64,000 nt of DNA from Clavelina lepadiformis. Taxonomy: Eukaryota > Chordata > Ascidiacea > Aplousobranchia > Clavelinidae. Numbering within the stretch: the first letter of the stretch is position 1; each line of letters begins with the position of its first letter. The stretch lies in assembly GCF_947623445.1 (NCBI RefSeq), contig NC_135240.1:26846001-26910000 (forward strand). Direction: 5' to 3'. Positions 34,734 through 63,762 of this stretch are shown piece after piece. Under the pieces are notes generated by a model. The model had not been told where the DNA came from. It did no database searches and saw only the letters and a program-made list of their open reading frames with translations. Both the position numbers and the translations under genes were made by a program.

Positions 34734-37298
34734 ATGTTTCGAGAACATGTATATGTGAAAATTATTTTCATTGTAAGCGTATTGTCCATCAGCCTGTCCG
34801 TAATTTTATTAAAGAGAATAAGAAACCACCATGAAGTTATCTCCAATACAGGTTCTTGCAATTATAAAACTAACTTACCGATAAGGAATGTTTACTGTAG
34901 CCTATTACTGATAAAAATTTGTTAAGCCTTGAAATTAGCTTTTGATGGGATAATAGCCTATATGTACTGTAAAGTATTACTGTATTTACAGTAATGTGTA
35001 TGAGTTTAATACATTTTGCAGAACCGACTTATTTCAGTGCAAACAAAAGCCTTGAAAACCAACTAAAGCAAAGAGAAACAAAGATTCTGATTCACACAGG
35101 TTTTGGCAGTTATTAAAATTACTGATAAGGTTTAGGCACAAGCAGCACATTTTTTCTGTTTCATGGATATAGATAAAAAGGCTGGAAAAATGTATCCGGC
35201 TAATAGCCGCTAACAGCTAAAGGTTCTCAGAGATTAAACATTTTGTTAGCCATTAGCCGGAAGCGTACAAGTAGAAGAGAATTTGGGCAAAATCTTTGGT
35301 AGTTCTTTGACTAGCAGAAATGTGTTGCTTTATTAATTATTTTAATGCTTGACTAGTTTGTTTCTCTAGTAAACTTCGGAGTCTATAGCATGACATATGT
35401 TGCTAATACACCATGTTTTATAACACCTTTCAAGACTAAATAATAGTTTTGCCTGCAATTAACAACCAGCTGACGGCTAAAGAAAATCGGTTAAATTCCC
35501 AGCCATAATAGATAATAGTGTGTCTTTGAGATTAGATTTTGGTGGAAATATTGTAAAGACAAGTGTTAACACAGTAAAGTATTAACAATGTGTATGAGTT
35601 ACATACTTTTGCAGGACCAACTGATTCCAGCACAATCAAAAGCCTTAAAAACAAGTTAAAGGAAAGAGAAACAACGATTAAAGAAATTGCAGAGTTCAAA
35701 CAAAACAATCCCGGAGTAAGTACAAAAGTATTTCACAAATTAATATGATATGAAAGTATTCAACACAAACAAAGAATATTTCTAACATTGTTAACTTTAC
35801 AATTAACATTGAAGTTAAGAATACTAACATTAGCATTGAAATTAACATCAACCCAAAGTCAAATGTTAGTATGATGTAGTCACAGGTAAAGGCACAGTGC
35901 GTTCAAACTACAGTAAGCGTTGTATAAAGTTAATAAGCTTAACCAACATCACAAAGCTATCTGCAAAGTTTTCTGAAGAGTTTGTAACATTTTTACAGTC
36001 AACTCTGTAAATCTCAGGTGAAACAACTTCCCAAAGTAATTGGGATCGGTGTAAAAAAATGTGGAACAGGTGGCGTTATAAGCTTTCTTGCAAACCATCA
36101 CCCATTAATCAAAGTCCCGTGGCAAGTTCAGACTGAAACCTTTTTCTTTGGGAGCAGCAGAACTAAAGGAGGACCAGATGCTTACAGGTTAAACACGTTT
36201 TTCAAGCACTTACGTCCATATTTTTATGGTTTTGTATTCAATATGAGATGTGTAATGAACTCTTTCTACTCAACAAACGTTTTAAAACACTATCTTTGAA
36301 ACAGCAATCTAACGTTGCAACTACAACTAACACAGTAAAGCACCACTTGTTAAAAAATAAATTGTTAAGAAAAGCAACAAAACTGGAGTTCTAAATGTTG
36401 AAGAAATTTTCTTTTTTATTCTCAGAGCCTTTTTTCCACCAACCAACAGCATGGAACTGGGAATGGAAAAGACACCAATTTACTTCGTTCACTCCGATCT
36501 CGATATACCTTCAGCCATCAAGAACATGGTACCTGAGGCAAAGTTACTGTTAATCGTCTGCGACCCGACAAAAAGATCTTTCTCTGATTATACTCACGAG
36601 GTGGGTGTCACATAAGCACTAATGCAGTTTACAACGTTGTCCATTGCAAAGCGAAATCTTACATCATTGTACGTATATGTTTTATGTAGAGAGTGCGGCT
36701 TGATCTTTACAACGATCAACTGATTGCAAAGTATAACACATTTGAAGACTATGTCAACGAGTACTTGCCGAAAGTGCGACTACTGTTGCAAAAAAGCCAG
36801 AATAACCTCACAAGTTACCAAGATGACCTAAAAACACAAAATATGCTCATCAAACTCCGTAGCACAGATCTCGCGGCAACCTTGATAAGCACTGGTCTGT
36901 ACATATACCACATTCAAAGATGGAAAAAGCTTTACAACGAATCAAATTTACTAGTTATTGATGGAGAGAATTTTAGAGAAGATACTGGAGCCGTTATAGA
37001 AAATATTCAAGATTTTCTCGGGATTCCTAAGCTTCTATGGAAAGAAGATTCTGTGAAAAACCCAGACACGGGTTTCTACTGTTTCAGAAAATTTACCGAG
37101 AAACATTTGAATGAATCGTACGTGGAAACTGAAGACGAATTAAAAACTTCGTTAAAATGTCTGGGCAAAAGCAAAGGACGAACACGAAATGGAGCAAAAC
37201 ACGCATCACCAGAAACTTTAGAAAGATTAAAGCAGTTTTATAAACCTTACAACGAAGCTTTTTATCGCGAGATGGGTCAAACATACAAATGGTTGTAA
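34734..37298 (+). CDS. Type II membrane sulfotransferase, HS3ST-like
   Basis: Exons: 34734-34851, 35615-35715, 36018-36187, 36426-36600, 36690-37298, giving 1,173 nt and 390 residues. An optional exon at 35022-35099 would make 416. A short cytosolic end precedes a membrane helix (about residues 10-26), then a charged stem, the Golgi type II layout. The catalytic domain has the 5'-phosphosulfate loop GVKKCGTGG (84-92), a Glu in QTETFFF (E113, aligned to the HS3ST catalytic base), EKTPIY, and CDPTKRSFSDY (175-185). The tail GFYCF and KGRTRNGAKHASPETL matches the HS 3-O-sulfotransferase end with its Cys pair. The Arg that starts the 3'-phosphate motif in HS3STs (RDP) is Cys175. Probable role: sulfate transfer from PAPS to a glycan in the Golgi; substrate uncertain. 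AATAAA at 37913. Confidence 0.85.
35022..35099 (+). other. Duplicated, possibly optional stem exon of the sulfotransferase
   Basis: This 78-nt segment is bounded by TTTTGCAG and GTTTTG and encodes 26 residues similar to the exon at 35615 (shared KSL-N-LK-RET pattern). The preceding ~50 bases of intron are duplicated too (GTAATGTGTATGAGTT against CAATGTGTATGAGTT). Length and phase (1-1) let it be included or skipped without changing the frame. Its donor is weaker than the GTAAGT of the second copy. It could be a cassette exon or a decaying duplicate. Confidence 0.65.
35196..35260. repeat. Short imperfect inverted repeat in sulfotransferase intron
   Basis: CCGGCTAATAGCCGCTAAC at the left is matched by GTTAGCCATTAGCCGG at the right with a small bulge and a loop of about 30 bases. 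It lies between the two similar stem exons. No flanking duplication was evident, so I call it a hairpin rather than a transposon. Confidence 0.55.
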
Positions 37299-39769: not shown

Positions 39770-42700
39770 TTAACGAGTGTCCATCACTAGATCAAATGCT
39801 TTGGGGATGTAAATTGTGCCATTCGTGCCACTGTCAAACGTGGGCGGGTCAGGATCTGCCGGATTAAGGCGGACAAGAAATTTCTGCATTATGACAACCA
39901 AAGTAAGAAACATTTCCATCCGGGCCATCTGCTCGCCCAAGCATGCCCTCGCGCCAACAGAAAACGGCATCACGTGTTTCGAGTGACGAAAACAGCCATC
40001 GTCGTCCAAGTGGCGCTCTGGTTTAAATTCCCACGGGTCCTTCCAGATTGCTTCGTCATAATGCAGTTGCCACAAGTTAATGAACACCTAGCATAACGTC
40101 AAACAAAATAGGTTAAAGGTAATATAAACTGAAATTCTAATAGTAGACCTTATCCTAGTTATCTCATTTTAAAAACCATTGTAACTAACATGAATATTTG
40201 CTTACAACTACTAACACATGCTTGTCCTACCTTGGTATCTTTCGGAATATGATAACCTCTGATTTCTACATCTTGCGTCACTCTACGTGGCAGCGCCAGT
40301 GGCGTCACAGCCTTGAACCGTAGAATTTCCTGCAATGTGGCGCATATGTAAGGAAGATTGCTTCGATGGGTCATACTGGGCACACCGTCTCTTCCTAGAG
40401 GAACAAACACGCTCAACTTTAATCTTATGTTTGAATTTTAAGATACTGTATAGTCATTATTGCAGAAAATTCAGTATAAGCTAGCCCTGTTTCTAAAATG
40501 CAACACTACAGTAGTAAGGATCATTCGCCAGCATGCCTCGGCAGACTTGAAAAACAAGTCATGGTTGCCAAGAACCGCAAGAAGCCAGGTGGGAAAATAA
40601 TACCGATATTCTGGCTCGGTCACAATTTATTACCAAACGGCGGACATGGTGTGGGACCGCTAAGGTGTTAGAAGTGCTATTATCCCGGCCATAAGAGAAT
40701 ATAACAGTTTTTAAAGATTGAAAAAAAGCGTCACAAACAGAACGTAACGAAAACCAGGCGTTACAGGATTAGATGTTTCAAATAATTTTAAAAGCTTCAG
40801 GCACAAGCCGTTTACCCAGAACTTTATCAATCTCTTCCTGGCACTTTCGTTGGGCGTCTTGTTTGATGGCAAGGCAAAGTAGAGCCCATCTCATGGACGA
40901 TGCTGTGGTTTCGGTCCCAGCAATGAAAAAATCAAGAAATAGACCAACGTCATCCTGAAACAAACTATTCAACTATATGAGGAGTCTGGAGACGCGTTTA
41001 TGAATTAAAAAGTGAAAAATTATCTGAATAATTCCACCAAAGCAATAAGCTCTAGTATATTTTCCATTCTTAATTAAACAATGTTTTGATCTTACCCTAT
41101 CTCGTAATGGCTTTGTACCTTTGATGAAATTATTATGGACGTCCTTACGCCTGAATCTTCTATATAGGCTACTTTAAATTATACTTTAATCGTTTAGGAC
41201 CTAAACGATTAAAGTGAACCTAACCTAAAGTTTAGGTTATAACCTTCGGGATATTTGGTTCAATTTCTTCAAGTTCTTTTACCAGATATTGGTCCACCAC
41301 GTCTCTGATATCGTTCTGGTCAAAGCTTGATCGATGTTCCTCGATGATTTGTCGAATATGTTCTTATAAAACAAAGAACACAAAACATGAAAACTCATTA
41401 TGTGTACATTATACAGCTCTCGTACCCAGCATACTACAGACTTACAGCGTGCATGTAACATGCAGTATACATGCGTATAAAGTTAGCAACTTACGTTAAA
41501 GCGTTTTCTCACCGTTTATTGCGCTCAATTGTTTCCTTGACGACTCGACGTGAGTTGAAAACGGAGGAAATGGAGCGTAACATAAGGTCGGAACAAAGGT
41601 CAGCACCATGGTCATCCAATGGCTCGCCAATTTAAATCTTTGAATAACAAATAATGTTGACATAAACAATGCAGTAATGTGTGAATCCTTCAGTCATATT
41701 CGTGAGCAAATTACGCAATTTGTCATCTAACATAACTAAATAATTATGCTGTCAGACTCAGAAAATATATTATGCAATTTTTGGCATTGTAAGTTTTGTT
41801 TTAAAAAAAACTTACTGGTCTCCCAGATTTTTAACAATCTCTCTGAATTTTTCGTCGTCATAATCAAATCTCCTTCCAAAAACGACGCTACAAAGGATGT
41901 TGGCTGCGGAAGTTGTCAGAAATTGCTGAAATAAATAATGTTTTTCACTTCGATTCTCCGCTGAGGTTCAACGCGAGCAAAGCAGCTGCTTAGGAATGGA
42001 GACTATTTGTGGGACCTTGACCAGCACTCAACGTTATAAGCCCTGATTGTCTGATTTGCACTTATTAATTGTCACGTATAACCAACGTGGAGAATGTACA
42101 AGTAATTTTAATGCCACAGAATCTTGACTTTTTTGCGTGGACTCCTTAACCACAATTGTATCTCATTATAAGGCTAGAAATTTTGGTCACCAATAACACC
42201 TTTACTCAATTTTCTGAGCTATTGCAATATATAGCATAGGCTACTGTTAAAGCAGCGATAACCTTACCTGGATATTAAAAGGCTTTCCCTTTTGATTCTG
42301 AATTTCTTGTGAAAAATATCTCAGTTCTTCAATAATTCTTGTTTCTATTTTCTGTTTACTAAAACTTTACAAAACATTTCCAACAATTAAAGTGAATTGA
42401 TTGACAATTGAAACAAGCTATCAGCAAAGCGTAGGCCTACCATGCAGCAGATTGTACCTTTTCATGGCAGCAGAACCAAACTGTCGCTGACGTTTCCACT
42501 TTGGACCGCCGATGTTAAAGACGATACCGCCACTTTTTCCTCTGGCGATGTCGTAAAATAGTAGATGGGGCCTCCCGTGGAACTGTTCACTATACTTCAC
42601 CAAGGTCTGAAAATGTTTCACTGCGTTACATACTTCGACTACCAAGCAGACTGTTTCTGGCGGTAGATTTAAAACATTCAAAAATACCTCTATTATGAGG

Positions 42701-42972
42701 TCATAATCATGAATAACAATCCACTTTTGCCAACCCATTGGCAGAGAAATCAAAGGACCGTATATCTTCTTCCATTTTGCAAAATCACGTTCAGGATACT
42801 GACTCAGATATGGTAGAACCCCTAATATCGGAAACCCTCTGGGGCCTGGTGGGTAATTTGGTGGCTTTCTATACCATAACCAGGTCATAAGACAAATTAA
42901 ACAGGTCACTAAGCCCACAGTTGAAAACGCATAATCCAACAAGGTGACCCAACGGTATCTGAATAAATCCAT
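39770..42972 (-). CDS. Microsomal cytochrome P450, CYP2-like, nine exons
   Basis: Exons, 5' to 3' on the minus strand: 42972-42688, 42606-42458, 42358-42268, 41925-41816, 41637-41513, 41362-41244, 40954-40816, 40394-40231, 40087-39770. Total 1,500 nt, 499 residues, in the nine-exon arrangement typical of animal CYP2 genes. An N-terminal membrane anchor (about 15-33) is followed by the proline hinge PPNYPPGPRGFP. C-helix WKRQR, I-helix AGTETT (305-310), ExxR in QEILR (362-365), PERHL, and the haem loop FSVGARACLG with Cys443 are all intact. Expected: an ER-bound haem monooxygenase using NADPH-P450 reductase; substrate not predictable. The ATG at 42972 is preferred over an in-frame GTG two codons upstream. 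Intron 6 starts inside a palindrome. Confidence 0.93.
41183..41238. repeat. Two perfect palindromes at the P450 intron 6 donor
   Basis: Arms ACTTTAATCGTTTAGG (41183-41198) and its exact complement (41200-41215) are separated by one base. A second palindrome, AACCTAAA-G-TTTAGGTT, occupies 41222-41238. On the minus strand the intron 6 donor GTTATAAC (41243-41236) overlaps the second palindrome by three bases. Both could fold as tight hairpins in DNA or pre-mRNA. Confidence 0.8.
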
Positions 42973-43897
42973 TTTCACAGATTTTGCTGCTAAAAAACTT
43001 CTCTTCCTTTTCCAATTCTTATCACTATTTTAAAATGTTCTGATTGTCTACCGAGCTAAGTTCGCCTTGTCACCCTACCACCCGAAACAACAAATAACCT
43101 TTTGCACCATAAAATCTATAACCAACGAGGCGTGACGTTTTTTGACGGGTTCTAGGTTTGATGACTGTATTCATTCAGCATCATTGTCCACGACATTTAA
43201 CACATTGCACGTTTAAATCCCTCGGGGCTTTGGAGGTTTTTCCAGTTCATTGATTGCCTGTGCACGTATTTCTTGATCTTGTCATACCATTCTACTGTAC
43301 AAGATCAAGATCACTCTTTTCGCTTCAATACAACACGGTGTCATCACTAACATTTAGAAGCATTGGATCACGTGATAATGTCATCTATTGAAGATCATTT
43401 TTAGCTGTCGTTAAAACCGAGCGCGTTTTGTTCGAAGCGTAAGTCGTTTGCGGAAATTACCCGGGTCGATATTTACACGCAAAGCAACGTAATTTCCTTT
43501 GTAGTTCGGTTTATGTAATCACCAGGTTAAATACTTGATACTAATAATGTTATTGCTATAGATAACCATTTGAATGCGCCGGAAACTACATTTTGTCCTT
43601 TACAAAATAACAACAATCAAATTATAAAGGATTCGGCTTTTCTTATTACACGAGAAACAATAGTATGTAGGTCACCAATTCAGCACTGCGCTTCAACACA
43701 GCAATATACTGTAGGACAAAACATACAAGACAAGACATTCAAAGTTTTGTTTTTTTGCTTTTCCACCAATCAGCGAAAAACACAATGAACATTAAAATGA
43801 AATTTAGGAAAACCTTTCAAAGATTGACGACTGATGGATGATTGATGGGTGGGTGACGGACGAGTAACAGATGATTGATGGGTGAGTGACGGATGAC
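42973..43897. other. P450 promoter side and end of VWA gene A, with a 33-bp repeat
   Basis: The left part is the P450 5' flank. At 43837-43896 two near-identical 33-bp units start GATGATTGATGGGTG and abut the stop codon of the VWA-domain gene at 43898. Nothing else could be supported. Confidence 0.5.
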
Positions 43898-46800
43898 CTA
43901 ACCGTACCTCTTTCGAACATTTCTTGGGATATAGCCGAGACAAGTCTCCTCACACATCCTTTCGTACAAAAACTTCTTATCTCGATCCACAAGCTCCTCG
44001 AAGTAATCCGCCCGGAGGTAGTTGACCTCATGAGGAAGAGTGGCGATGTTAGCTAATTCTGATGACGTAGCATCCGGTCCCGCAGCAATGACTATAAAGC
44101 GACCGTGACCCCGGATAACCTCTGAAGCTTCTTCCACAGTAAAGTCATCCGGAGAACCTAGTGTGTGACAAATTTTGGGTTTTGGGTTTTGACAATAATA
44201 ATTTAATCAATTGCTAAATTATTTTCAACAGTTTGAAACGAAACGTTTATGACATTCAAGCTTGTTCAGTTTTTTCAAACCAAATTATTCCAGTAATATT
44301 ACCAGTAGTTATAAGTACAATGGTATTAGGGACGTCAACTCTGTCACCAAGTCGCCCCTCGAAAGCATTTTCACCAACCCAAGCCAACGCTTCTCCGGTT
44401 TTTCTTCCATAACCTGAAAATCGATCGTTTAATATTTTGCATTTTAGCAACTGAACGACCCAGTTAAACGTGCATTTAGACAACCTCGCATGGGCATCAT
44501 GTTTATGGCTCTCTCCAGGGCTTCATGGTTGTCGTACGTGTCCAAGTACCAGGTCCCTTCATTGGTGAACAACTTGCTGTTGTAAGCTGTGAGGGCGACT
44601 TGAACTCGATCCTGAAAAGTTTAACAGAATTTAGCGTTAACGTCTTCCGTTTTTACCATAAACAAACTAAATGTTTTTAGTCTAATTAGGATGAAACCAA
44701 AATAGAAAAGGTGTTTAGGCGTTAAAAAATTTCCTACGTGTCGTTACATACGATGTACACAATTCATTAATGCCAAAACTCGCTTAAACCTTTAAAGAAT
44801 AATCGTGTTAATCGCATAAGTTACATTCGTATAAACACATACATATATACAAATTAAACACATGAAATCGCTTCTAAAGTTAACCAATTATCTAGATTAA
44901 GGATACGCAAGAATAAAATCTCAAACTACACCTAAAATTTCAGAAATCTAAGTTTGATTCAGAAAGGACACGACCTAGCGAACCAAGATGTTGCTTGTAA
45001 TTATAAAAAAATTCAGCACTTACTGATGACACGGGGAAGTAACTGACCAATAACTTGACAAAACTTCGAATGTTTGAAAGATTTCCAACTCCAATTGATT
45101 GATCGATGTCAACAATGAACCAAATATCCTGAGCGTAGGAGGACGGACAACCTTCGCCTGAAATATGTTTCATTAATTGCTTTAAAATGTACAGAATGAG
45201 GAAAAAACAAGTCATTATTGTAAATTAATCACCGAGTTGTGTTCACTCAGCTTGTCAAAATCAGCGCTTTAAGAAATTTGCAGAAAGCAACTGACTGCGA
45301 AAATGTTAGCCATGATAATCCCGCCGTTTAATTAAATGTCACAAGTTTTCCAGCCATTGACACATGTGCTCATCATAATAATAATCCCGTTTTTCCAAAC
45401 AAACCAGTTTTTAGCTAAGTGTTTTGAAAAATTGTACTAAAGGCTAAAGATGAAAAGCTTTGAACCCGCCAAACAAGGTACAAGCAAACTAATTGGAGTT
45501 TACGTTCATTTTTGTGGGAATGTAAAATCTTCTAAAATTAAATCTTTTTAGTGTGGGCTTTTTCTCGAAAACAAGACAGCTTTCAAAAAACCAATAAAAA
45601 TATTTGGTTCAAATTAAAAGATATGGGTTCTACTGTAACATTAAATGAATAAAGTTATGCTGCCAATAATAATAAAACGCACAGCATTCTGGGTCTGAGT
45701 CGTCCCAATTTCCAACAGCGTTGCATTTCACTTTTTTGTCTCCTTTTATTTGAGTCCCTGGCGGACACAGGAATGTGCATTGGTTAGGATGTTTGCTTTT
45801 TCCCGCTGTGTTCCTGCATTGAGCTTTGAGTGGAGGTCTCTGATCCAGATGCAAATCTCTTACACGACAAAACGGTACCCGGCTCGGAGGATAACAGAAG
45901 CGCTCGTTTTCTTCATTTATCTCGAGAACTCTGTAAAATTTAAGTTGGAGAAATAAATGACCAAGTATTAAGCAAGTGCGCAATTGACTTGACATGGGAA
46001 CATTTTACCTTGATTTAGCCAAGCAACAAAAATCTCTAGTAGCGTTATAGATGATGTTTTTGCAACAAGATTCGCCCTGTCTGTACGGGGCCCCGTTTCT
46101 GTCCCCGGCCGGGCAACACCCAATATTTTGGCTAACTACAGGAGGTTCTTTTGGTTTCCCAGGCCTAACGGGTTTGACGGGCCGTTGAATTTCGACTCTT
46201 AAAGTGTCGGTCATGTCCATCGGCTCACCCTCACTGTCAGTGACACTGGTCACTCGGCCCTTGTCATCGATGACGTTGACCAGCATTTCCTCCACCACGC
46301 TGATGACGTTTCCCTCGCGGTCAACGACCTCATTGACCGGTTCCTCGCCGGGTGACTCGGTTGGTTTGGGCTGGACTGTGACGGAGTTGCCGTCTCTGTC
46401 AATCGTGTCAATCATGTTCCCGTTTTCGTCGACCACGTTGATGATGACATTTTTGTCTTCAGTGTGTTCGGCGACGACGGCGGGGATGATAATGGCGGTT
46501 GGTTTGGGAGGTCTTGGCTTCCGGGTGGGGGGCGGTGGTTCACAGATCAGGTTCCCTGGTGATTGCATTTTTGGGTTAAAATAAACTCAAGTGTTCCAGG
46601 TAATTTCATAATAGAATTTACTTCATTTTGCTCAAACAAGCAAGGTCAATAAAAATGTAAAAGTTCTCAAATCATAATTTTACCTGGCAACAATTCTTCC
46701 CCTATGATGGAAAAGACAAAAAAGAAATATTAGATAAAAATTTGCAAAACTTTGGCACCACTTTAATAAATGATGTTTCTGTGAGATTAAATCTGTTTAA

Positions 46801-49316
46801 CTTTTTATGATTCTACCAACACAACAAAAGTTTTAAACAGTATACTGAATATTTGAGTCATACCAGAGAGTATACCCATCTTGGATATGAGGAGATGACG
46901 TCATAGTACGTCATACAAAGTGCAAGCTATACACACCACACATGCAATGACACCAATTTTTACCTAACAGAAGAAAACTGTTAATCAAGCTTACAAAACA
47001 AACCAGGAAGTAACGTAATAACATACTTAACATTGGGGCCAAATCCCCGAAAGTTAGGATGATGTCATGTGAACAATGGCAATGGCTTATCATTGACATC
47101 AAGCCAGTTGTTACATTGTTCTGTAGTGGCCTGGGAGCCACTTTCAATACCAATATATCATTCGTGGGAAAGTATTCGCCAGTTGTTTATTGAAATGTTG
47201 TTTGTTGATGAAACTGCAATTGTCGCTTAATATTTGGAAACTTTCTCTAAATAACGTTATGTGAAAGCGCCGTTTAGTACGTTACCAGGTGATTTCATAA
47301 CATCCGAGTTTTAACTGTAAATAATCCCCATTGCCCAACGCTTTATTTTATCGTTCGCGTATTCTGAAATGTTTGTGTATATTGTGTTGAATATTTCCGC
47401 TCACATCGCTCCGCTTTATAAACTCGAGCTGATACGCGAGTAACCGCTCAGACAAAGATGTAGAATCGTACGAACGTAATGTTAATGTAAATGGTGAATG
47501 TTAAGTTTGTGATTGTGTAATAATCGGAACCTGTACAGTTCCTACAATAAAGGATTGTTTCTGATAAACTGTATCTGTTAATCGTAAGAGCTTTCGGTTA
47601 GTAAACGTTAGGTTAGAGAATTCTAACCGCACGCAACCACGGAGTCAGATCATTAATTCGGCAGGTAAATTAAGTCCGAATATCATAAGATAAACAGTGC
47701 AAGTCCTCTGCAGTTCTACGATGATCAAACTAACTACCATAATTACGGCATTAAACATTTCCAGAAAACAGAGCAATGACGTAGGTCATGACGACGACTT
47801 TCAGTAAAAAGTATGCTGGTGTGACGTCATCATACAATTAACACCACAACTGAAAAATTTGATGCAGAATCACTGGTACCAGCATTCTGAAAACGCGGCA
47901 TAATGCGCTTGATGAAAAGCGGCAAGATTGGTTTTCGTGATGTCTTATGATCTAAACGGGCGTGGTACTGTCGTGACCTTTCGTGAAATGAAACGAAGTA
48001 TAAAAAATAGCTAAGCGCATAAGCTTAAGCATTTCATACCTTCTTCATTTATATTAAGTAGGTCAGCCGTCACAATTTCAAAAAGAAAACATTCATTCGG
48101 TTACGCTAATAGGGCATTACATGTACCTTTGTAAACTTCTATGTTCATGAAACTTATTGGGTTAGTTGGGTTAAAAATTATTGGTTATTTTGCTTTCGGT
48201 TGTTTCAAGCCAAAAAGTTTAACGACAAAAGGAATTCATTTATAACAAGAGTACAAACAACAAGAAATGTTTGTCTTGTCTCTCAGACAACGGATAGGAA
48301 TAAGCAAGCAAAGTAAAGATAGAGTTTCTAATGTGGTTAAAATGTTAGTATTAAAAAATTCCACCAAAAACATTACAGTTTCAAGATATTTAATTCAAGC
48401 GGTTTTACCTTGGATGGCGTCGAACGGAATCCTCTCTGTAATACAACAACATTAATTTGTGTGCGCAAAGCTTCAAGTTGAAAGTTGTGTTTCTAAAGCT
48501 TCTTGCATAAGTGATACATACCATCATTGAAAGCGGGTCCAAATGGAACTGCAAAAGAAAATGCAACCATTCGTATTTTGAAGGGACACTTCTGCAGTTT
48601 AAATTGTAAATTTTATTTAAATATTTGATAGTAACTGAAAGGTCAAATCATTACAAGTAAGTTAAACTTTTATAAAGTAACTTTTCACAAGTTTTCTAAA
48701 AAAATTACGAGTAAAGATAAAATATTTACCGTCTTGAAGGACGCCAGGAGGATCTTGAGGCAACGGTTCTTAAGAAATAAAAATATTTTATTATTTGGTG
48801 AAATTTCACGACATGATAACAAAATAACATGAACAAAATTGGAGGTTATGTTTAATTGGTTATCTGTTACTTTTCACCGAGCGGATTGTGGTCGGCGAGG
48901 ACCGTTATAGCTATTCTTATAAAGAATCGCGCCCAAGGCTACAGTCTCACAAAACGTCAGCTCTGAAAACAAGTTTTTCGACATTTTCAAAACCTGATCA
49001 AAGCGAGATAAAAATCTTTTGGTAACCAAATGACCACTGAAATAGTAGCCTACTATAGGCTGCATATTCTAAGAGTGTATACGTCTCCTCGCATAGAGTT
49101 TTGCAAACCAACCACTTTTCCTATGTCTGAAGTTCCAGGTTAAGACGTGAGCTGAAAAACATTTCACTCACCGTTTGCAGCCCTCTTCACGATATGATGA
49201 CGTCTAATCTCCTCATCTTCGTGGAAGGATGAACGACGAAGAAGAAAAAAGATGGCGCAAGTCGAGACGAAGATTACAGGGAGAATAAATCTCTTTGTCT
49301 TGCGTCTTAAACGCAT
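43898..49316 (-). CDS. Type II membrane protein with di-Cys, Sushi and VWA domains (copy A)
   Basis: Exons on the minus strand: 49316-49172, 48768-48730, 48548-48522, 48435-48409, 46701-46684, 46555-46009, 45930-45683, 45157-45024, 44611-44485, 44413-44303, 44157-43898. Sum 1,683 nt, 560 residues. It starts MRLRRKTKR with a membrane helix at about 10-25, so the bulk should be extracellular. Four microexons encode a Pro/Asp-rich stalk. A long exon follows with repeated acidic DxxG units, then a paired-Cys module (GCCPAG, GESCC, DFCC, resembling galaxin repeats). A Sushi/CCP domain spans about 289-350 with HPNQCTFLCPPG and a Trp before the last Cys. A VWA domain begins DIWFIVDIDQS. MIDAS residues are altered. 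Likely a cell-surface or matrix adhesion or recognition protein; I know no named orthologue. Tandem paralogue at 52068-55528. Confidence 0.82.
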
Positions 49317-52067
49317 TGTGACGACAAAATCGACGAAGCTCGCCTTTTTGCAATTCTATTTGATTACGATTTATTTTAGAACAACTCCTAAAATTAAATC
49401 CTATATTATTAGGAGTTTTATAATAACTGTGGTTGACCAGTTTAACTAAAAATCTGCTTAAAATTTCGGTTTATTGAAATCTAATTATTTTAATCTATAT
49501 AGGTTAAAAAAAAGAAATATGAAACGTGCCTGTGGTAGAAAAGTTTAATGGTCATTATTTATAACTTCCACTAAACTTCGATTATGTCAGAAACACTACA
49601 CATTTTTTTAAGTTAAAGTATTTTAAAGTGTCCAAATGCACTCTGTGCTTTGCATTTACTTCGTAATATCTCACTTCCTACGTGATAAAGTACAATGCGC
49701 TGGCGACTGTTATTTAAATTTTAAGCAACGTATTTTTTAGTTCTTGAACCATTTCGCGTCAAATTCATATTTTCCATATTTATCAAATGCTTAATTTTTA
49801 TTTGGAGATAAATATTTTTATATTGTTCATACTCTTCAAAACAAGTTGATAAAATGAAGCTGAACAGGTTTTTCATCCAACGGATAATGAAATGCCCTTT
49901 GATGTCGATAGTTTTACATGACAGGAATGTCGTTACAGACCGGCCACTCTCTGGCTTTAAATTGCTATAGTATTTTTTAATGATTAAATAATCGCCTTCG
50001 GTGATACGGATTAGTCCATAACAGTTTTATGCGCTCTCCCATTCCTTCAAACTTTATGGTCGTTTCATCATGAAAAGAGCACACCCGTAATCTACGTTCC
50101 AAAAGTTATCCATAAAAAAACATCACATTGAAATAAGCAAATTCTAGTTCTTTTCTAAGAGTTTAAATTTAAACTCAACGAGAAGAAACCGAAATGTGTC
50201 TAAAATATTCCCATCTAACTGCACGTTTCTCTTCTTTTTAAAATCATTTCTTTCCCTTCTTCATTAACTTTAAAATATTCTTTTCTGAATATTTTCAAAT
50301 TCTTTTATGATCAAAATTTTGTAAAAATATTGCGAAAACGTTGCAAATAATCACCATTAAGTTTACATGCGACATCAGTCAAATTCAAAATATTTAATTT
50401 ATCTAAAGATTTGAATAAAATAGATGTATATTAATAAAAAAAACTTCTCTTTTTACAAGCAAGGTTAAGCCTCTGGCGTAAAAAAGCTTCTTTTTTGTAA
50501 CAATCGGCATTCTTTTATCACAATTATGACTTAAGTTTCAACCTTTCACGCATAATAGCTGCACGTTTCAAAATGTTTATATAATAATTAACAATATTAT
50601 TTACTTGCCGTAACTAACTATGGTTTATTGGAAACTTTTCAAACACATTCATGCGCAAAATATGTAGCCTAGCAATGCTCTTGTTAACTACAGGTGTAAC
50701 TGACTATACCGGCCACTGATTGAAAACTCTGTTGCGGTCTAATCAAACTACTCTGCTGACAGGAAGGATGGTCAAACCGCAAAAAACAACGTTCTTCCGA
50801 GACATATTTTTACTGATTATTATCACCTAAATTTTATCCATCATTTCCACAAAAATAAGAATTCTGGGGTACTCAATTGAAGCAAAATTTAACCTCGTTT
50901 GTGTTAAGGCTTTTAAAATCTGACGCATAGTGTCTCAACAACATTGATGAAAACATCTACTCAAAAGTTTGCTCATCACTACATCAGTGCATAACCAATG
51001 AACATAACCTACTTGAGAAATTTCACTGAAAACCCTTTACAAATAACTCATGTCATAAACTGTCATGGCCGACTGTGACCTGACCAGAAATGTCGAACCC
51101 TATTTCTCAATCCCATCATCTCGCCCACATTAGTGCACAAATCAAGGCGGACAAGATAAGCCTATGTTGTTAACCGAAGTTAGCCTTTAGGCAAAGCAAT
51201 TTGCGGCAGGTGAAGGTCGCGGTCGGGCACACCTGTACTTAGCGCGAAATTATTTTTACTTCAGTTCTCAAGTTCGTAAATGTCAGTTTTAAGTTCATTG
51301 TATTGGACTCATTTCCGCCCTCTAGCGAGTAAGACTACTGCACTACACGCCAGTAAATCTCCCTTAATCAAGGTTGATAATTCTTTGATAAATAGACTTA
51401 ACAAATCCATTGAAAATTAATCTCGAATACACAAAACCAAACGACATGCTGCAAAAGCAAAAATGACATTACTGCTGCAACAAATAATAATCGAAACTGT
51501 TTTTTGTTTTGTCTGTACTCTAGTGATGCTAATAATATTTTTTAAATGAAATAAAGGTTTGCAAAATAATATTTTACTACACAATTACTACAGTTACTAC
51601 AATTTACGTGAACTTTTCATTTATTAGCAAAGTAGTATTATAACCAAACCAACACGTTACCAGTGTTATCAGATAAACTTAAACCTGTATTTGTTGTTCA
51701 TCCGCACAAATGAAAGAATGACACGTGACTTTGTTGCTTCAAATCTTAGTATACAATACTATACTATACTACAGTTCACGGGTTAGAAGTACTGGCGTTT
51801 TACGAAAATACATGCAATTGTGATCGCTCTTGTTAGAAACAATAGATTCTACGTCGCGCAAACTCTTTCATAATCTTAACAGGGCAATTAAAAGGGCTTC
51901 TTACACTTTGGGGTAAAAACAGATGGATTTTTCATATCAGTATCATATCATATCATATCATTTTCATTTTTCATATCATTTCATATCGAACAGCCTCAAA
52001 CAGACGACATTGATTTTTCTCCATTTCTAATCTTTAATTTTTCTTCCAGCACAATCAGGAGATCATG
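49317..52067. other. Intergenic region between the two VWA genes
   Basis: AT-rich spacer. The first ~50 bases upstream of the copy A start are also conserved upstream of copy B, suggesting a shared proximal promoter or 5' UTR. A TCATA-type microsatellite lies at 51931-51987. No frame with protein-like character, RNA gene or structured repeat was found in the remainder. Confidence 0.5.
51931..51987. repeat. TCATA pentanucleotide microsatellite
   Basis: About nine imperfect TCATA/TCATT units, on the plus strand, roughly 80 bases beyond the stop codon of copy B. Confidence 0.8.
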
Positions 52068-55000
52068 TTAATCTCCAAGATCAATATTGGATCGCGGATT
52101 CTTCCCAACACTATCCGGGATCCGTCCGAGACAAGTCTCCTCACACATCCTCTCATACAAAAACTTTTTATCCCGATCCACAAGCTCTTCGAAGTAATCC
52201 GCCCGGAGGTAGTTGACCTCATGAGGAAGAGTGGCGATGTTAGCTAATTCTGATGACGTAGCATCCGGTCCCGCAGCGATGACTATAAAGCGACCGTGAC
52301 CCCGGATAACCTCTGAAGCTTCTTCCACAGTAAAGTCATCCGGAGGACCTAGAAGACAAAATGGGCAGACAATTCTCGAATCGTTGTTAATATAACCTCG
52401 GAATGGACGAGCTTGTTTTGATACACAAGAAGTTGCCACAAATACAAACAAAATAAATTTGTACGACTTTGCTTCTTTTATTAAGTACTTGAAATGATTT
52501 TACCAGCATTGTGGTTGTAAACGCCACTTTTTGGAACATACAGTACTTAGCTTGGTGCATTATATCGTACTTTGTCATTTCAATATTTCCTTACCGGTCG
52601 TTATGAGTACAATGGTATTAGGAACGTCAACTCTGTCACCAAGTCGCCCCTCGAAAGCATTTTCACCAACCCAAGCCAACGCTTCTCCGGTTTTTCTTCC
52701 ATAACCTGAAAATCGATCGTTTAATATTTTGCATTTTATCAACTGAACGACGCAGTTAAACGTGCATTTAGACAACCTCGCATGGGCATCATGTTTATTG
52801 CTCTCTCCAGGGCTTCGTGGTTGTCGTACGTGTCCAAGTACCAGGTCCCTTCATTGGTGAACAACTTGCTGTTGTAAGCTGTGAGGGCGACTTGAACTCG
52901 ATCCTGAAAAATAGTGGCATTTTTTAAAAGTTGAATGTGAACACCTTGATGTAGAAACTTTGGCATTGTGGTGCTAGGAAAGTTTATAACAGTTTATATC
53001 TTGATTTGTCAGATTACAAGGATAGTTTAAAACGATGAATTGAATATTTAGTTAAGTATAAGAGAGATTTGAACCCTTTAGTAAGAGTGATAAATATATC
53101 TTCAAAACTCATTTTTAATACAAGTAACTTACTGACGACACGGGGAAGTAACTGACCAATAACTTAACAAAACTTCGAATGTTTGAAAGATTTCCAATTC
53201 CAATTGATTGATCGATGTCAACAATGAACCAAATATCCTGAGTGTAGGTGGAAGGACAACCTTCGCCTGAAATATGTTTTATTTTGTTAAATATTTCACA
53301 CAAATGATTATCGACCTTTAACCAAACAGGTTCTCTGACCAAAACCAATGGATAAATAACTTTGGCGTAAATTGCCACCTTCAAACACGGGTATACGTTA
53401 CGCTAAGCTGATCAATGATCAAGGACATTCCACAAAATGAACTCAGGTTTAATCCGGTTGTGGCGACATATACTGTAGGAAGTGATGAGGTTAATATTTC
53501 TTCATGCGTTCTAAATAAAGATTTTAAAACGTTGCAAAACTTACAACATTCTGGGTCAGAATGATCCCAATTTCCAACAGCGTTGCATTTTATTCTTTTA
53601 TCCTTTTTTACTTGCAACCCTGGCGGACACAGGAATGTGCATTGGTTAGGATGTTTGCTTTTTCCCGCTGTGTTCCTGCATTGAGCTTTGAGTGGAGGTC
53701 TCTGATCCAGATGTAAATCTCTCACACGACAAAATGGAATTCGATTTGGAGGATAACAAAAGCGTTCGTTTTCGTCATTTATCTCAAGAACTCTGTAATT
53801 ATAAAACCTAATATATATCTAATAGTTTAACCGAAAAATTAAAAGAATAAACTAATGTCAAATATTCATAAACCAATATTCTTTTGTCATTTTTGTGTTA
53901 AAAAAATAACCTCGACTTTTCTAAGCAGCAAAAGTCTTTTGTTGCGTTGTATATGATGTTTTTGCAACAGGATTCCCCCTGTGTGTATGGGGTCCCGTTC
54001 CGGTCCCCAGCCGGGCAACATCCAATGTTTTTCTCTGGACCTACTTGTCCAACAAGAACTGGATTGTTTGGAATAACGAGGACTGGTTTGTCCGGGATGT
54101 TATTGTTGTTGGACTTCGGTGCTTTTGGCCGCTTTGAGGGCGTGGGTTCACAAATCAAGGTTCCTGAAATTCAACATCCTTTGTTTCAAACGAAATGTCT
54201 AAAATTAACCATGAATTCAATGTCAACCTTTCTTATTTTCACTTAAAAATGTTTTAAGAGCGAAAGACACTTTAAAATACTGACTTGTGATAAAATTGAA
54301 CAAATTAATATCCAAATAGATTACCTGGTAAGCGCTTTTCTGTAAAAGATAAAATATGTTCAAATAACAAACAGTAAATTCTACATTTGACTGTAGTAGA
54401 GAAGTATATATTATTTAATTAAGTACAAATATCTATAAACATTCCGGGCTTTACTCAATCTATATTATATGATAACAATGACATACCGCCATCTACATCA
54501 GGTGGAGGTCCTGAAATAAAATGTTATGTTGACTAAGAAATGAAAACGATTAAGTAGAACAAGCTATAGAAACAAGCTCTATATAACTAATTAAAGAATC
54601 ATCATCATTAAAATTATCGTCACTTCACTAATAAGTGCATGTTGGTTAATCAACCATAGCACTGCTTTTGCAAGCGACTCACAATAATACGACGAAATTG
54701 ATAGAACGGATTCAGAAAAATAAGTGGCATATTGGACAGGTCACACACTTTATGTAAAGATAGTTGATTAATGGTAAGCCCATATATCTCGTGTGCTGGT
54801 GGTAACATTAAAGGTAAAATAAAATGACGAAGTTTATTACGAAAATTAGATCCCTACCTTCTAGCTCCATTCCGGGTAGATCTTCTGAAATTAAGTAAAG
54901 TCAGAAGCTTTTGATGATTATATGAGTTCCGTAATATTTATAAAGAAATAAAACTGTTTTAACTGATTCGATTTGGAATTTGAATTTTCTTTAAAAGGAG

Positions 55001-55528
55001 CATACTATAAAAAGTATTCGAATCAAATTTCGTTCCACAGCAAACTTGCACAATTACAAAAAGTGAGTTGATGCTAAAACTACATGCAACCAAGATAGGC
55101 ATTCAAAGATTAGAACATTCATCAGTCAAAAAAGAATCTATTCATGAAAATTAACAACTCATGCAATCAACAACAACAAATTAACAACTCTTACCTGTCA
55201 ATGCATCAAGGGGGACTTTATCTGTGTAAAAACAGTTCAATGAGCTTTAATTCGTATGTTTAAAACAATCACGATGATTTACTCACCGTCGTTAAATACA
55301 TTTCCAAGAAATGAAGGTGGAAGCTCTGCAAAGAAGAAATTAGTTTGCAAAATTCTGAGCTTGAATCTAACTACTTGCCCACTCACCAGCATTCCTCCTC
55401 ACAATAAGATGGCGACCGATCTTTTCGTTCTTGCTGAAAGAGGAACGACGAAGCAGAGTCAAGCCGATGAACGTCGAGGTGATGGTTAGCAGAAGAACTG
55501 ATCTCTTTGTTTTGCGTCTTAAACGCAT
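52068..55528 (-). CDS. Type II membrane protein with di-Cys, Sushi and VWA domains (copy B)
   Basis: Exons on the minus strand: 55528-55387, 55325-55287, 55221-55195, 54884-54858, 54510-54487, 54339-54325, 54163-53911, 53792-53545, 53266-53133, 52903-52777, 52705-52595, 52348-52068. Sum 1,428 nt, 475 residues. Same domain order as copy A. The Sushi and first three VWA exons have identical lengths (248, 134, 127, 111 nt) and near-identical protein. Differences: five microexons instead of four, a stalk exon 294 nt shorter (no acidic DxxG units, instead an Asn run and two PVLV units), and a different C-terminus after CEETCLG. VWA metal-site residues are altered in the same way. Divergence is concentrated in the membrane helix, stalk and last residues while the domains are conserved, which fits a recent tandem duplication with changing linkers. 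Confidence 0.82.
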
Positions 55529-61400: not shown

Positions 61401-63762
61401 AGCAGATTGAGTAGATTACATGTCATTCATGGATTGTTTAATTGTTTCTCAAAGCTTTGTTGATCCAAATGGTTTTGTTTGTTGATTATTTTGACCTGGC
61501 CAGGTTGCAAGACAAAATAATTTGCTTAGTTCAGCCCAGTACTATGATCTTGTACCAACCTTTTCTCCTTCTCACGACTCCATCCTCCCCAACCTCCTCT
61601 TCACTTTCCTCACTCCCACTTCCTCCCTCCTCAGCCAGCTTCTTCCGGAGTTCTTCAATCTCCTTCTGGAATTGACGAAGAAGAGCATCCTGCGGGAAAA
61701 AATAGAAATACCATTAAAATATAATGAAAAATGGCAACTGATAGTCAGAAAAAAAAAATTATGCTAATAACTAACCTTGGGATCCTCATTGATAACTGCT
61801 TTGTTCTTGATATTCTTGGCACGATTTGCGTAACGAAGAGTGGATATTGTTTCGTCATAATTGTAATTCGCCGGCCCAATATTAGCACACTATGAACAAT
61901 TTAAATCAAATTACTAAAAAAATCCTAATCCGCATACAAATAGCAGATTATAAAGTAAGCCTACAAATAGTTCTATGTACTTTCATACAAACCACCACTC
62001 ATCTCCTTAAACTTACCATCATAGTTTTTGAGTTTCCACCCAGAGAGTCTCGCAGCATAAGAGTAAGTTTCGAGTTTCTGTATGGGATATGTGTGCTGCG
62101 ACCGTCTACCAATGCTGATATCACGTTTCCCAGCGTGGAAAGTGAAAGGTTGATTTTTGTCGCCTCAACCAAACGCTGACCAGTGGCACCAGTTTTAACC
62201 TGACGCTCTGAACCCTGGTCAAGACATATTTTGAAAAATTGAAGCTTTTGACCAGGACATTTACCTGGTAAACTCAGGTTGAAATAGCTAAACTCAATCA
62301 GATATATACAATGTAAAATATGGTAATTCAAGTGCTGGGTTCAATTCAAGAAATCGGATAAAATGTACATCACACCAAAAGTCAACACATATCAAGATTA
62401 ACTTACAGCCAAGTCGACCAAATGCAGTTTGCCGACTCGGACATGTTGCTGGCCGTCAACCCCCTTCTCACTGCACTCGAGCGTGAGGGTGAATATAGCG
62501 TGGGACCTAGACGAATGCTCGTTCATATCTGTTGATCCAACAGACCCTGCAAATGAAATCAGTCATGAGTCATTGAACCGTGACATGGCAGACATAGCCA
62601 CGCTACGCTAAAAAAATCATCTAATTACTGTTTTTATTTCCATGTGACATGATGCCATCCATATCATCGGCGTTATAAACGACACACATGGATAAATCCT
62701 TCACATAAACCCCGATGTCCGGTCGTTCTTTCACTTTCAAACGAGCAGTCTGGTCCTTGCTGAGCAGGTCGCGAACTTCTTCGTTGTAAATTTCCAAATA
62801 TGAGGCACGAACCTGGTCAATTGGTCACATTTATAATGTATAATTGTTAAAAGACAAGCACCAAGAAGTAGTTAAAACACAATTTTGGAGGATATCAATT
62901 TTTCCACCATCTCACCAAAAATCTCGTGTCTCCTTCAGCCTTTGCAATATGACCAAAGATATGAGCGAACGAATTTGGTATGATCCCACGTTTTTCTGGA
63001 ATTGATCGAAGTCCTTCCATGGTAAAAGTCTTGCCTGTACCGGTTTGCCCATATGCAAATATGGTCCCTGCATAACATGCAAAAATGGATGCACATATTC
63101 ATCTGCAAGTATATCTGTTGGCTTTCACAACTTAGCCTACTGATATAACTCAAACCAAAAGTCCTTTTATTAACAGATATTTGCAGTGAGAAAGAATAAG
63201 TGCAAGAGTCATGCAAAGCCAGTTAAGACCATTTCATTCTATTGTACAGCAATTTCAAATTCAAACATATGTATTTATATGTATATACAGTACATGTAAA
63301 TGCCATAATGCAATATATTTATATGCGTCAATGTTACCAAACTTGGACAAACACACCATAATGAATTAGAAAATAGACATACCATTATACCCTTCTAACA
63401 CAGAGTCAACAATTGGACGAGCGGTCAAGTTGTAGACGTCAACTTGCTTGCTGTCTGGACCGAAAACAGTGTCAAATGTGAAAGTTTTCGGTGGATCTTT
63501 TGATTTTGGCTTTTGAACAGATATTTGGCCTCGAACTTCATCCACTGCAAAATTTAAGATGAAAAGCCATCAAAAAAAATGTAAATTGACTTAAAAAACA
63601 AGTCGGTAATAACAACATTTTAGCAACACAGCGTAGGGGGTTAAAAATCATTTCTCAAAACATACCCCGGACAGCTTGCTCATGGCCGGCAGACGTTTCT
63701 TTATCGTTTATTGGCCGACATCTTACAACAACCCGGACGTTATCAGCTTTATCTGGCTTCAT
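58407..63762 (-). CDS. KIF3A: KIF3A, kinesin-II motor subunit
   Basis: Fifteen exons on the minus strand: 63762-63666, 63544-63383, 63067-62916, 62812-62629, 62546-62407, 62214-62017, 61889-61776, 61689-61560, 61144-60979, 60779-60599, 60002-59925, 59850-59638, 58810-58739, 58634-58531, 58458-58407. Sum 2,043 nt, 680 residues (vertebrate KIF3A about 700). Motor: VVVRCRP, P-loop GQTGTGKT (93-100), switch I NEHSSRSH (207-214), switch II LVDLAGSE (241-248), then neck, acidic hinge and coiled coil. [11 protein letters not shown] and [11 protein letters not shown] identify KIF3A rather than KIF3B/C. The C-terminus RPKTGKSK...IDALLS fits the family tail. It pairs with KIF3B and KAP3 to drive anterograde intraflagellar transport. 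A stop codon overlaps the donor of the penultimate exon. A MITE lies in intron 12. Confidence 0.95.
58960..59320. mobile_element. hAT-type MITE in KIF3A intron 12
   Basis: A 361-bp element starting CAAGGCTTTGGAGC and ending GCTCCAAAGCCCTA, inverted copies with 12 of 14 positions paired. The perfect 8-bp direct repeat GTCCCACC occurs at 58952-58959 and 59321-59328. The interior is packed with GGAGCTGGAGC/GCTCCGGCTCC blocks in both orientations, an extended subterminal repeat structure that can fold. No transposase frame. The terminus resembles the CAGGGCTTTGGAGC group of hAT elements seen in many animals. Confidence 0.92.

Follow-up and report, generated by a model that had tools for sequence, protein, structure and literature searches.

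Two old tandem paralogues, which we call A and B, lie on the minus strand of the window (the whole 64,000-nucleotide stretch of DNA analysed) and are predicted to encode type II proteins of the cell surface that span the membrane once, N-in. Both gene products have the same layout: a basic N-terminus is followed by one hydrophobic helix, a stalk encoded by small phase-1 exons, a module with three di-Cys, one Sushi domain and a C-terminal VWA domain. We tentatively regard A and B as adhesion or matrix-docking proteins, present at the surface or shed from it, that would share a VWA head and carry it on different stalks. The preliminary description had recognized a tandem pair with one common layout, and the exon models bear this out, with reading phases that fit throughout both genes (Table 1).

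By eye, no ATG is found upstream of the start and before the nearest upstream stop, in the frame of either gene. Two donor sequences depart from the consensus, namely gttgtc after exon 9 of A and after exon 10 of B, and gttatt after exon 7 of B. Gene B encodes 18 cysteines, all located after the helix, and gene A encodes the same 18 and one more within the helix. Elsewhere in the window, an ORF at 42424-43029 (minus strand) resembles the N-terminal part of a cytochrome P450, a 65-residue piece of it giving a p450 match at E 0.0035, below the cut-off; the ORFs at 62002-62340 and 36690-37295 resemble, by eye, a piece of a kinesin motor and a piece of a sulfotransferase, respectively.

Table 1. 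Features of genes A and B, in coordinates of the window.
Feature	Position	Strand	Remarks
Gene A	49316-43898	minus	11 exons, 560 aa, reading phases consistent (exon model)
Gene A exons 1-6	49316-49172, 48768-48730, 48548-48522, 48435-48409, 46701-46684, 46555-46009	minus	
Gene A exons 7-11	45930-45683, 45157-45024, 44611-44485, 44413-44303, 44157-43898	minus	stop included
Gene A hydrophobic helix, residues 10-26	49239..49289	minus	preceded by basic start; Kyte-Doolittle 17-residue mean 2.69; predicted topology
Gene A small stalk exons 2-5	46684..48768	minus	39, 27, 27, 18 nt, all phase 1-1; splice signals, open frame
Gene A-only stalk insert	46150..46480	minus	about 110 residues, degenerate D-x-x-G-N type repeats; absent from B
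Gene A di-Cys (galaxin-like) module	46023..46127	minus	CC-x15-CC-x11-CC; dS 1.43, dN/dS 0.04 vs B; like contig 6 locus
Gene A Sushi exon	45683..45930	minus	putative converted core about 45869-45756, core dS 0.08; Pfam Sushi 16.3 bits, below cut-off 20.7
Gene A VWA exons 8-11	43935..45157	minus	Pfam VWA 2.2e-24; exon blocks share 95.5-97.5% identity with B
Gene A 71-bp intron separating VWA exons 9 and 10	44414..44484	minus	69/71 identical to B intron 52776-52706
Gene B	55528-52068	minus	12 exons, 475 aa, reading phases consistent (exon model)
Gene B exons 1-6	55528-55387, 55325-55287, 55221-55195, 54884-54858, 54510-54487, 54339-54325	minus	
Gene B exons 7-12	54163-53911, 53792-53545, 53266-53133, 52903-52777, 52705-52595, 52348-52068	minus	stop included
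Gene B hydrophobic helix, residues 10-26	55451..55501	minus	preceded by basic start; Kyte-Doolittle 17-residue mean 2.00; predicted topology
Gene B small stalk exons 2-6	54325..55325	minus	39, 27, 27, 24, 15 nt, all phase 1-1; splice signals, open frame
Gene B di-Cys (galaxin-like) module	53925..54029	minus	dS 1.43, dN/dS 0.04 vs A; like contig 6 locus
Gene B Sushi exon	53545..53792	minus	putative converted core about 53731-53618, core dS 0.08; Pfam Sushi 21.8 bits, above cut-off 20.7
Gene B VWA exons 9-12	52126..53266	minus	Pfam VWA 3.7e-24

In each protein, the helix is the 17-residue stretch of highest hydropathy, and the best such stretch beyond residue 40 reaches 1.06 in A and 1.08 in B. 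From the helix and the basic residues on its N-terminal side, we infer a type II (N-in, single-pass) topology for both proteins. An arginine-rich start followed by a short helix fits residence in the Golgi or ER as well. Exon 1 ends in a dibasic site, KR or RR, that is kept in both genes. Between A and B, this exon has a dS of 0.61 and a dN/dS of 0.52, and residues 1-30 have a dN/dS of 0.79; such loose constraint, which a precise membrane signal need not show, adds no support for one.

Within 1223 bp, the stalk of B contains seven candidates for small exons of phase 1, compared with a mean of 1.56 and a maximum of 7 in 200 Markov resamples. The stalk of A holds six in 2616 bp (resampled mean 2.56, maximum 9), and the antisense strands contain 2 and 1. 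Exon 2 of A, which has a poor acceptor, is missing from this candidate set. Among the five A/B microexon pairs of equal length that were tested, A4 and B3 are clearly alike (p 3e-5) and the likeness is marginal for A2/B2 (p 0.02) and A4/B4 (p 0.018), while none is detected for A3/B4 (p 0.56) or A3/B3 (p 0.91). Several stalk exons of the models are thus placed by splice signals only. The insert present in the stalk of A has a G+C content of 54% and a sub-threshold match to RHS_repeat in Pfam (E 0.12). A phage or mobile origin of this insert was considered and rejected, as tblastn gave no match in the phage collection and no second copy occurs below E 9 in this genome.

No Pfam family matches the di-Cys module. 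Its spacing, CC-x15-CC-x11-CC followed by a lone Cys 16 residues further on, is common to the galaxin and calcarin proteins of corals and sponges and to a contig 6 locus in the same genome. That locus (G000:C6:16042132-16048939; L036, L025) contains evenly spaced, di-Cys-rich, galaxin-like exons in at least two similar rows about 6 kb apart. In a shuffle test that keeps the cysteines fixed, we compared each module to three segments of this locus and obtained p values of 0.002, 0.017 and 0.14 for A, and of below 0.0005, 0.066 and 0.032 for B. The likeness beyond the Cys positions therefore has a p below 0.05 in four of the six comparisons, supporting a relationship between the di-Cys unit and galaxin-like genes elsewhere in this genome. 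The module shows the sequence similarity of a galaxin unit, and lacks the long regular di-Cys array that characterizes galaxins: it has three di-Cys only, whereas the calcarins have 10-23 according to the available text of PMC12419799. Furthermore, in A and B the module is fused to Sushi and VWA and constitutes only part of the protein.

The matches to the Sushi profile (PF00084) span positions 17-56 of 56 in both genes. The closest solved sequences are those of complement receptor 2 (CR2; 3.6e-6) and E-selectin (0.0074), and a two-row AlphaFold prediction of the Sushi exon is uninformative (mean pLDDT 50.3). The VWA domains are clear members of their family (PF00092), with 87 and 86.3 bits against a curated cut-off of 23.8. 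Among solved sequences their best match, and thus the nearest VWA by sequence, is collagen VI alpha-3, followed by proximal thread matrix protein 1, MIC2 and VWF. They also resemble matrilin-type VWA domains. Unlike collagen VI alpha-3 and matrilin-type proteins, A and B have no collagen or EGF part, but a single C-terminal VWA on a neck of Sushi and di-Cys. The metal site of VWA domains, the MIDAS, is defined by the motif DxSxS together with a T and a D. In A and B it reads DIDQS / T / ITTG, with two of the five positions substituted with respect to DxSxS / T / xTDG, and DxSxS / T / TDG is kept in the three further VWA domains that we compared from this genome (L017, L018, L019). Since the MIDAS is degenerate, the putative binding by A and B is probably not of the classical metal-dependent kind.

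Two known architectures combine Sushi and VWA domains. SVEP1 (polydom) starts with VWA and continues with many Sushi, EGF and pentraxin domains. It has both VWA and Sushi in common with A and B, in which the order is reversed: the Pfam layout is one Sushi followed by the C-terminal VWA, in agreement with the earlier statement that SVEP1 differs. Complement factor B and C2 carry three Sushi domains, a VWA and a C-terminal serine protease domain, so that Sushi precedes VWA as it does in A and B. A factor B-like identity was rejected, as Pfam gives no serine protease match in A or B; each also has one Sushi, not three. In the available texts of the open-access literature, we found no paper describing a di-Cys, Sushi and VWA layout, so that the earlier claim of no named family is not contradicted; a coral skeletome paper, in its available text, names VWA and Sushi within a long series of proteins, but does not describe the layout of A and B. 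Judged on this genome and the open-access literature, A and B would represent a new combination of known domains.

The divergence between A and B forms a mosaic. It is high at silent sites in the di-Cys module (dS 1.43, dN/dS 0.04) and, within the Sushi exon, in its 5' portion (dS 1.19, dN/dS 0.06), falls to a dS of 0.08 in the Sushi core, rises to 0.72 in the 3' part of the same exon and is 0.11 in the VWA; in the 11 codons of the C-terminal tail, dN is about equal to dS. Among codons for the same residue, 16 of 36 differ silently in the di-Cys module, compared with 18 of 233 in the Sushi core and VWA (Fisher p 1.7e-7). Likewise, 4-fold sites differ at 8 of 11 positions in the former and 11 of 104 in the latter (p 1.6e-5). 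The near-identity extends to the intron between the second and third VWA exons (Table 1), and the five other introns compared barely align (z 0.9, 1.6, 3.4, -0.6 and 3.1). In a cumulative test of silent divergence, the observed range was reached in none of 20000 permutations; a permutation test for conversion based on the longest run was not significant (p 0.13). The high-identity blocks of the VWA part stop near exon borders, and the Sushi-core tract both starts and ends inside its exon.

The best reading of this mosaic is an old tandem duplication with interlocus gene conversion superimposed on it, in short later tracts whose extent the residual homology would limit. As the near-identity reaches silent sites and one intron, it would mostly be explained by gene conversion, and as the introns no longer match, the tract borders would lie near the ends of the VWA exons. 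Since the searches found just two copies, each gene presumably has the other as its donor, and the differences that persist at 11 of 104 4-fold sites in the converted tracts suggest that conversion was not very recent. It is very unlikely that the mosaic arose instead from extreme nucleotide constraint on the VWA exons and the Sushi core, or that the 3' half was recently duplicated and its introns were later replaced. Either process would fit the blocks that stop near exon borders in the VWA and the longest-run result, but not the intron with 69 of 71 identical positions or the borders of the Sushi-core block within an exon; moreover, the remaining introns are barely similar (z -0.6 to 3.4), as expected for old homologous introns. 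Constraint that conversion does not confound is seen in two regions, namely the di-Cys module and the 5' portion of the Sushi exon. The proposal of conserved outer domains on fast-changing stalks is only partly right, as the near-identity of Sushi core and VWA would mostly reflect conversion.

We searched the 209.06-Mb assembly (95 contigs, one haplotype), in which the window corresponds to G000:C1:26846001-26910000, with probes for the VWA, Sushi, di-Cys and exon 1 parts. Strong matches to these probes are confined to A and B, so that two copies are found in this assembly, both within the window; the searches scored the best candidates exon by exon, and a diverged copy could escape them. Weaker matches comprise VWA genes elsewhere (starting at 6.4e-8), further Sushi exons (starting at 0.02) and, for the di-Cys probe, the contig 6 locus (0.45 and 5.3). 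VWA exons are abundant genome-wide: a profile search that scored 150 of 321 candidates gave at least 130 matches with an E of 1e-5 or lower, and the split VWA of A and B is not among the matches listed. On contig 3 (G000:C3:16113414-16133067; L031-L033, L008), a VWA, several Sushi exons and another VWA lie on one strand, possibly as one SVEP1-like gene or as a group. On contig 5, near-identical sets of Sushi/EGF exons about 24 kb apart (G000:C5:17713365-17716466 and 17737384-17740485; L007, L006) form a further pair, either recently duplicated in tandem or converted.

In the arrangement that we propose, the stalk of variable length would bear a disulphide-braced neck of di-Cys and Sushi, and the collagen VI-like C-terminal VWA would form the outermost head, binding a partner in the matrix or on a cell surface. 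In an alternative form, the proteins would be released from the cell surface at the dibasic KR or RR that ends exon 1. Short conversion tracts may keep A and B uniform in their Sushi core and VWA head, as for the same ligand, and the unconverted stalks and tails would diverge, possibly providing different reach or regulation. The shedding, the binding role and the shared ligand are all putative. It is rather unlikely that the genes form a surface-receptor pair in which conversion continually equalizes the binding head (Sushi core and VWA) while microexon stalks, repeat insert and tails diverge, and the same ligand is met at two distances or within two settings; the galaxin-like neck would then be new in this combination.

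A secreted component of the tunic or of another extracellular matrix has a modest chance of being the correct assignment. The helix would then be a signal peptide, or would be cut off at the dibasic site with which exon 1 ends in A and in B, and the protein would be integrated into tunic or basement matrix through its VWA and di-Cys cross-links. Precedents come from tunicate house proteins (oikosins), which contain CCP and VWA modules, their co-occurrence in one protein not being established in the available text (PMC3390340), and from the secreted galaxin and calcarin proteins, for which di-Cys modules are typical (PMC12419799, available text). Against secretion, basic residues precede the helix and RR directly follows it, and a shared signal-peptidase site is not evident by eye. 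A position on the gamete surface, for example on sperm at the vitelline coat, seems very unlikely: the available text of PMC9265791 describes type II membrane proteins of ascidian sperm, both HrTTSP-1 and the products of a contiguous gene group, Tast2a-d, but these have protease domains, which are missing from A and B.

The preliminary description had also suggested an immune or allorecognition role, citing vCRL1 as a model. Nothing that we found supports this role, and we give a blood-cell immune or allorecognition receptor a slim chance. vCRL1 has several CCPs and a topology opposite to that of A and B. Like them, this Ciona protein is a Sushi-bearing ascidian protein; unlike them, it is described as highly polymorphic, with no VWA mentioned in the available texts, and two reviews, in their available parts, place its role in the blood system and not in self/nonself recognition at fertilization (PMC9265791, PMC8849226). 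Another parallel is offered by fester and uncle fester, surface proteins of the ascidian Botryllus whose genes have a Sushi exon and numerous small exons. The available text of PMC3549757 presents fester as a CCP receptor that has a single SCR/Sushi exon and is extensively alternatively spliced, and the symmetric phase-1 stalk exons of A and B would permit exon skipping. Uncle fester shows a comparable mosaic, its exons 4-9 being nearly identical to exons 6-11 of fester and its exons 1-3 unrelated (PMC3549757, available text). However, the ectodomain of fester is followed by three predicted membrane segments, for which the hydropathy of A and B beyond residue 40 gives no sign, and a VWA is not mentioned in that text. 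The immune reading is further weakened by the presence of just two copies in this genome, whose presumed recognition heads are equalized between the copies, not diversified. Fester, vCRL1, HrTTSP-1, Tast and the oikosins are analogies for the function of A and B, not tests of it.

The two genes add the domain order di-Cys, Sushi, VWA, and they suggest that a galaxin-like module is employed beyond biomineralization, in a non-calcifying chordate. They also indicate that extracellular domains of paralogues may look alike through gene conversion and not through functional constraint, a caveat that alters the reading of paralogue pairs in searches for fast-evolving recognition genes.
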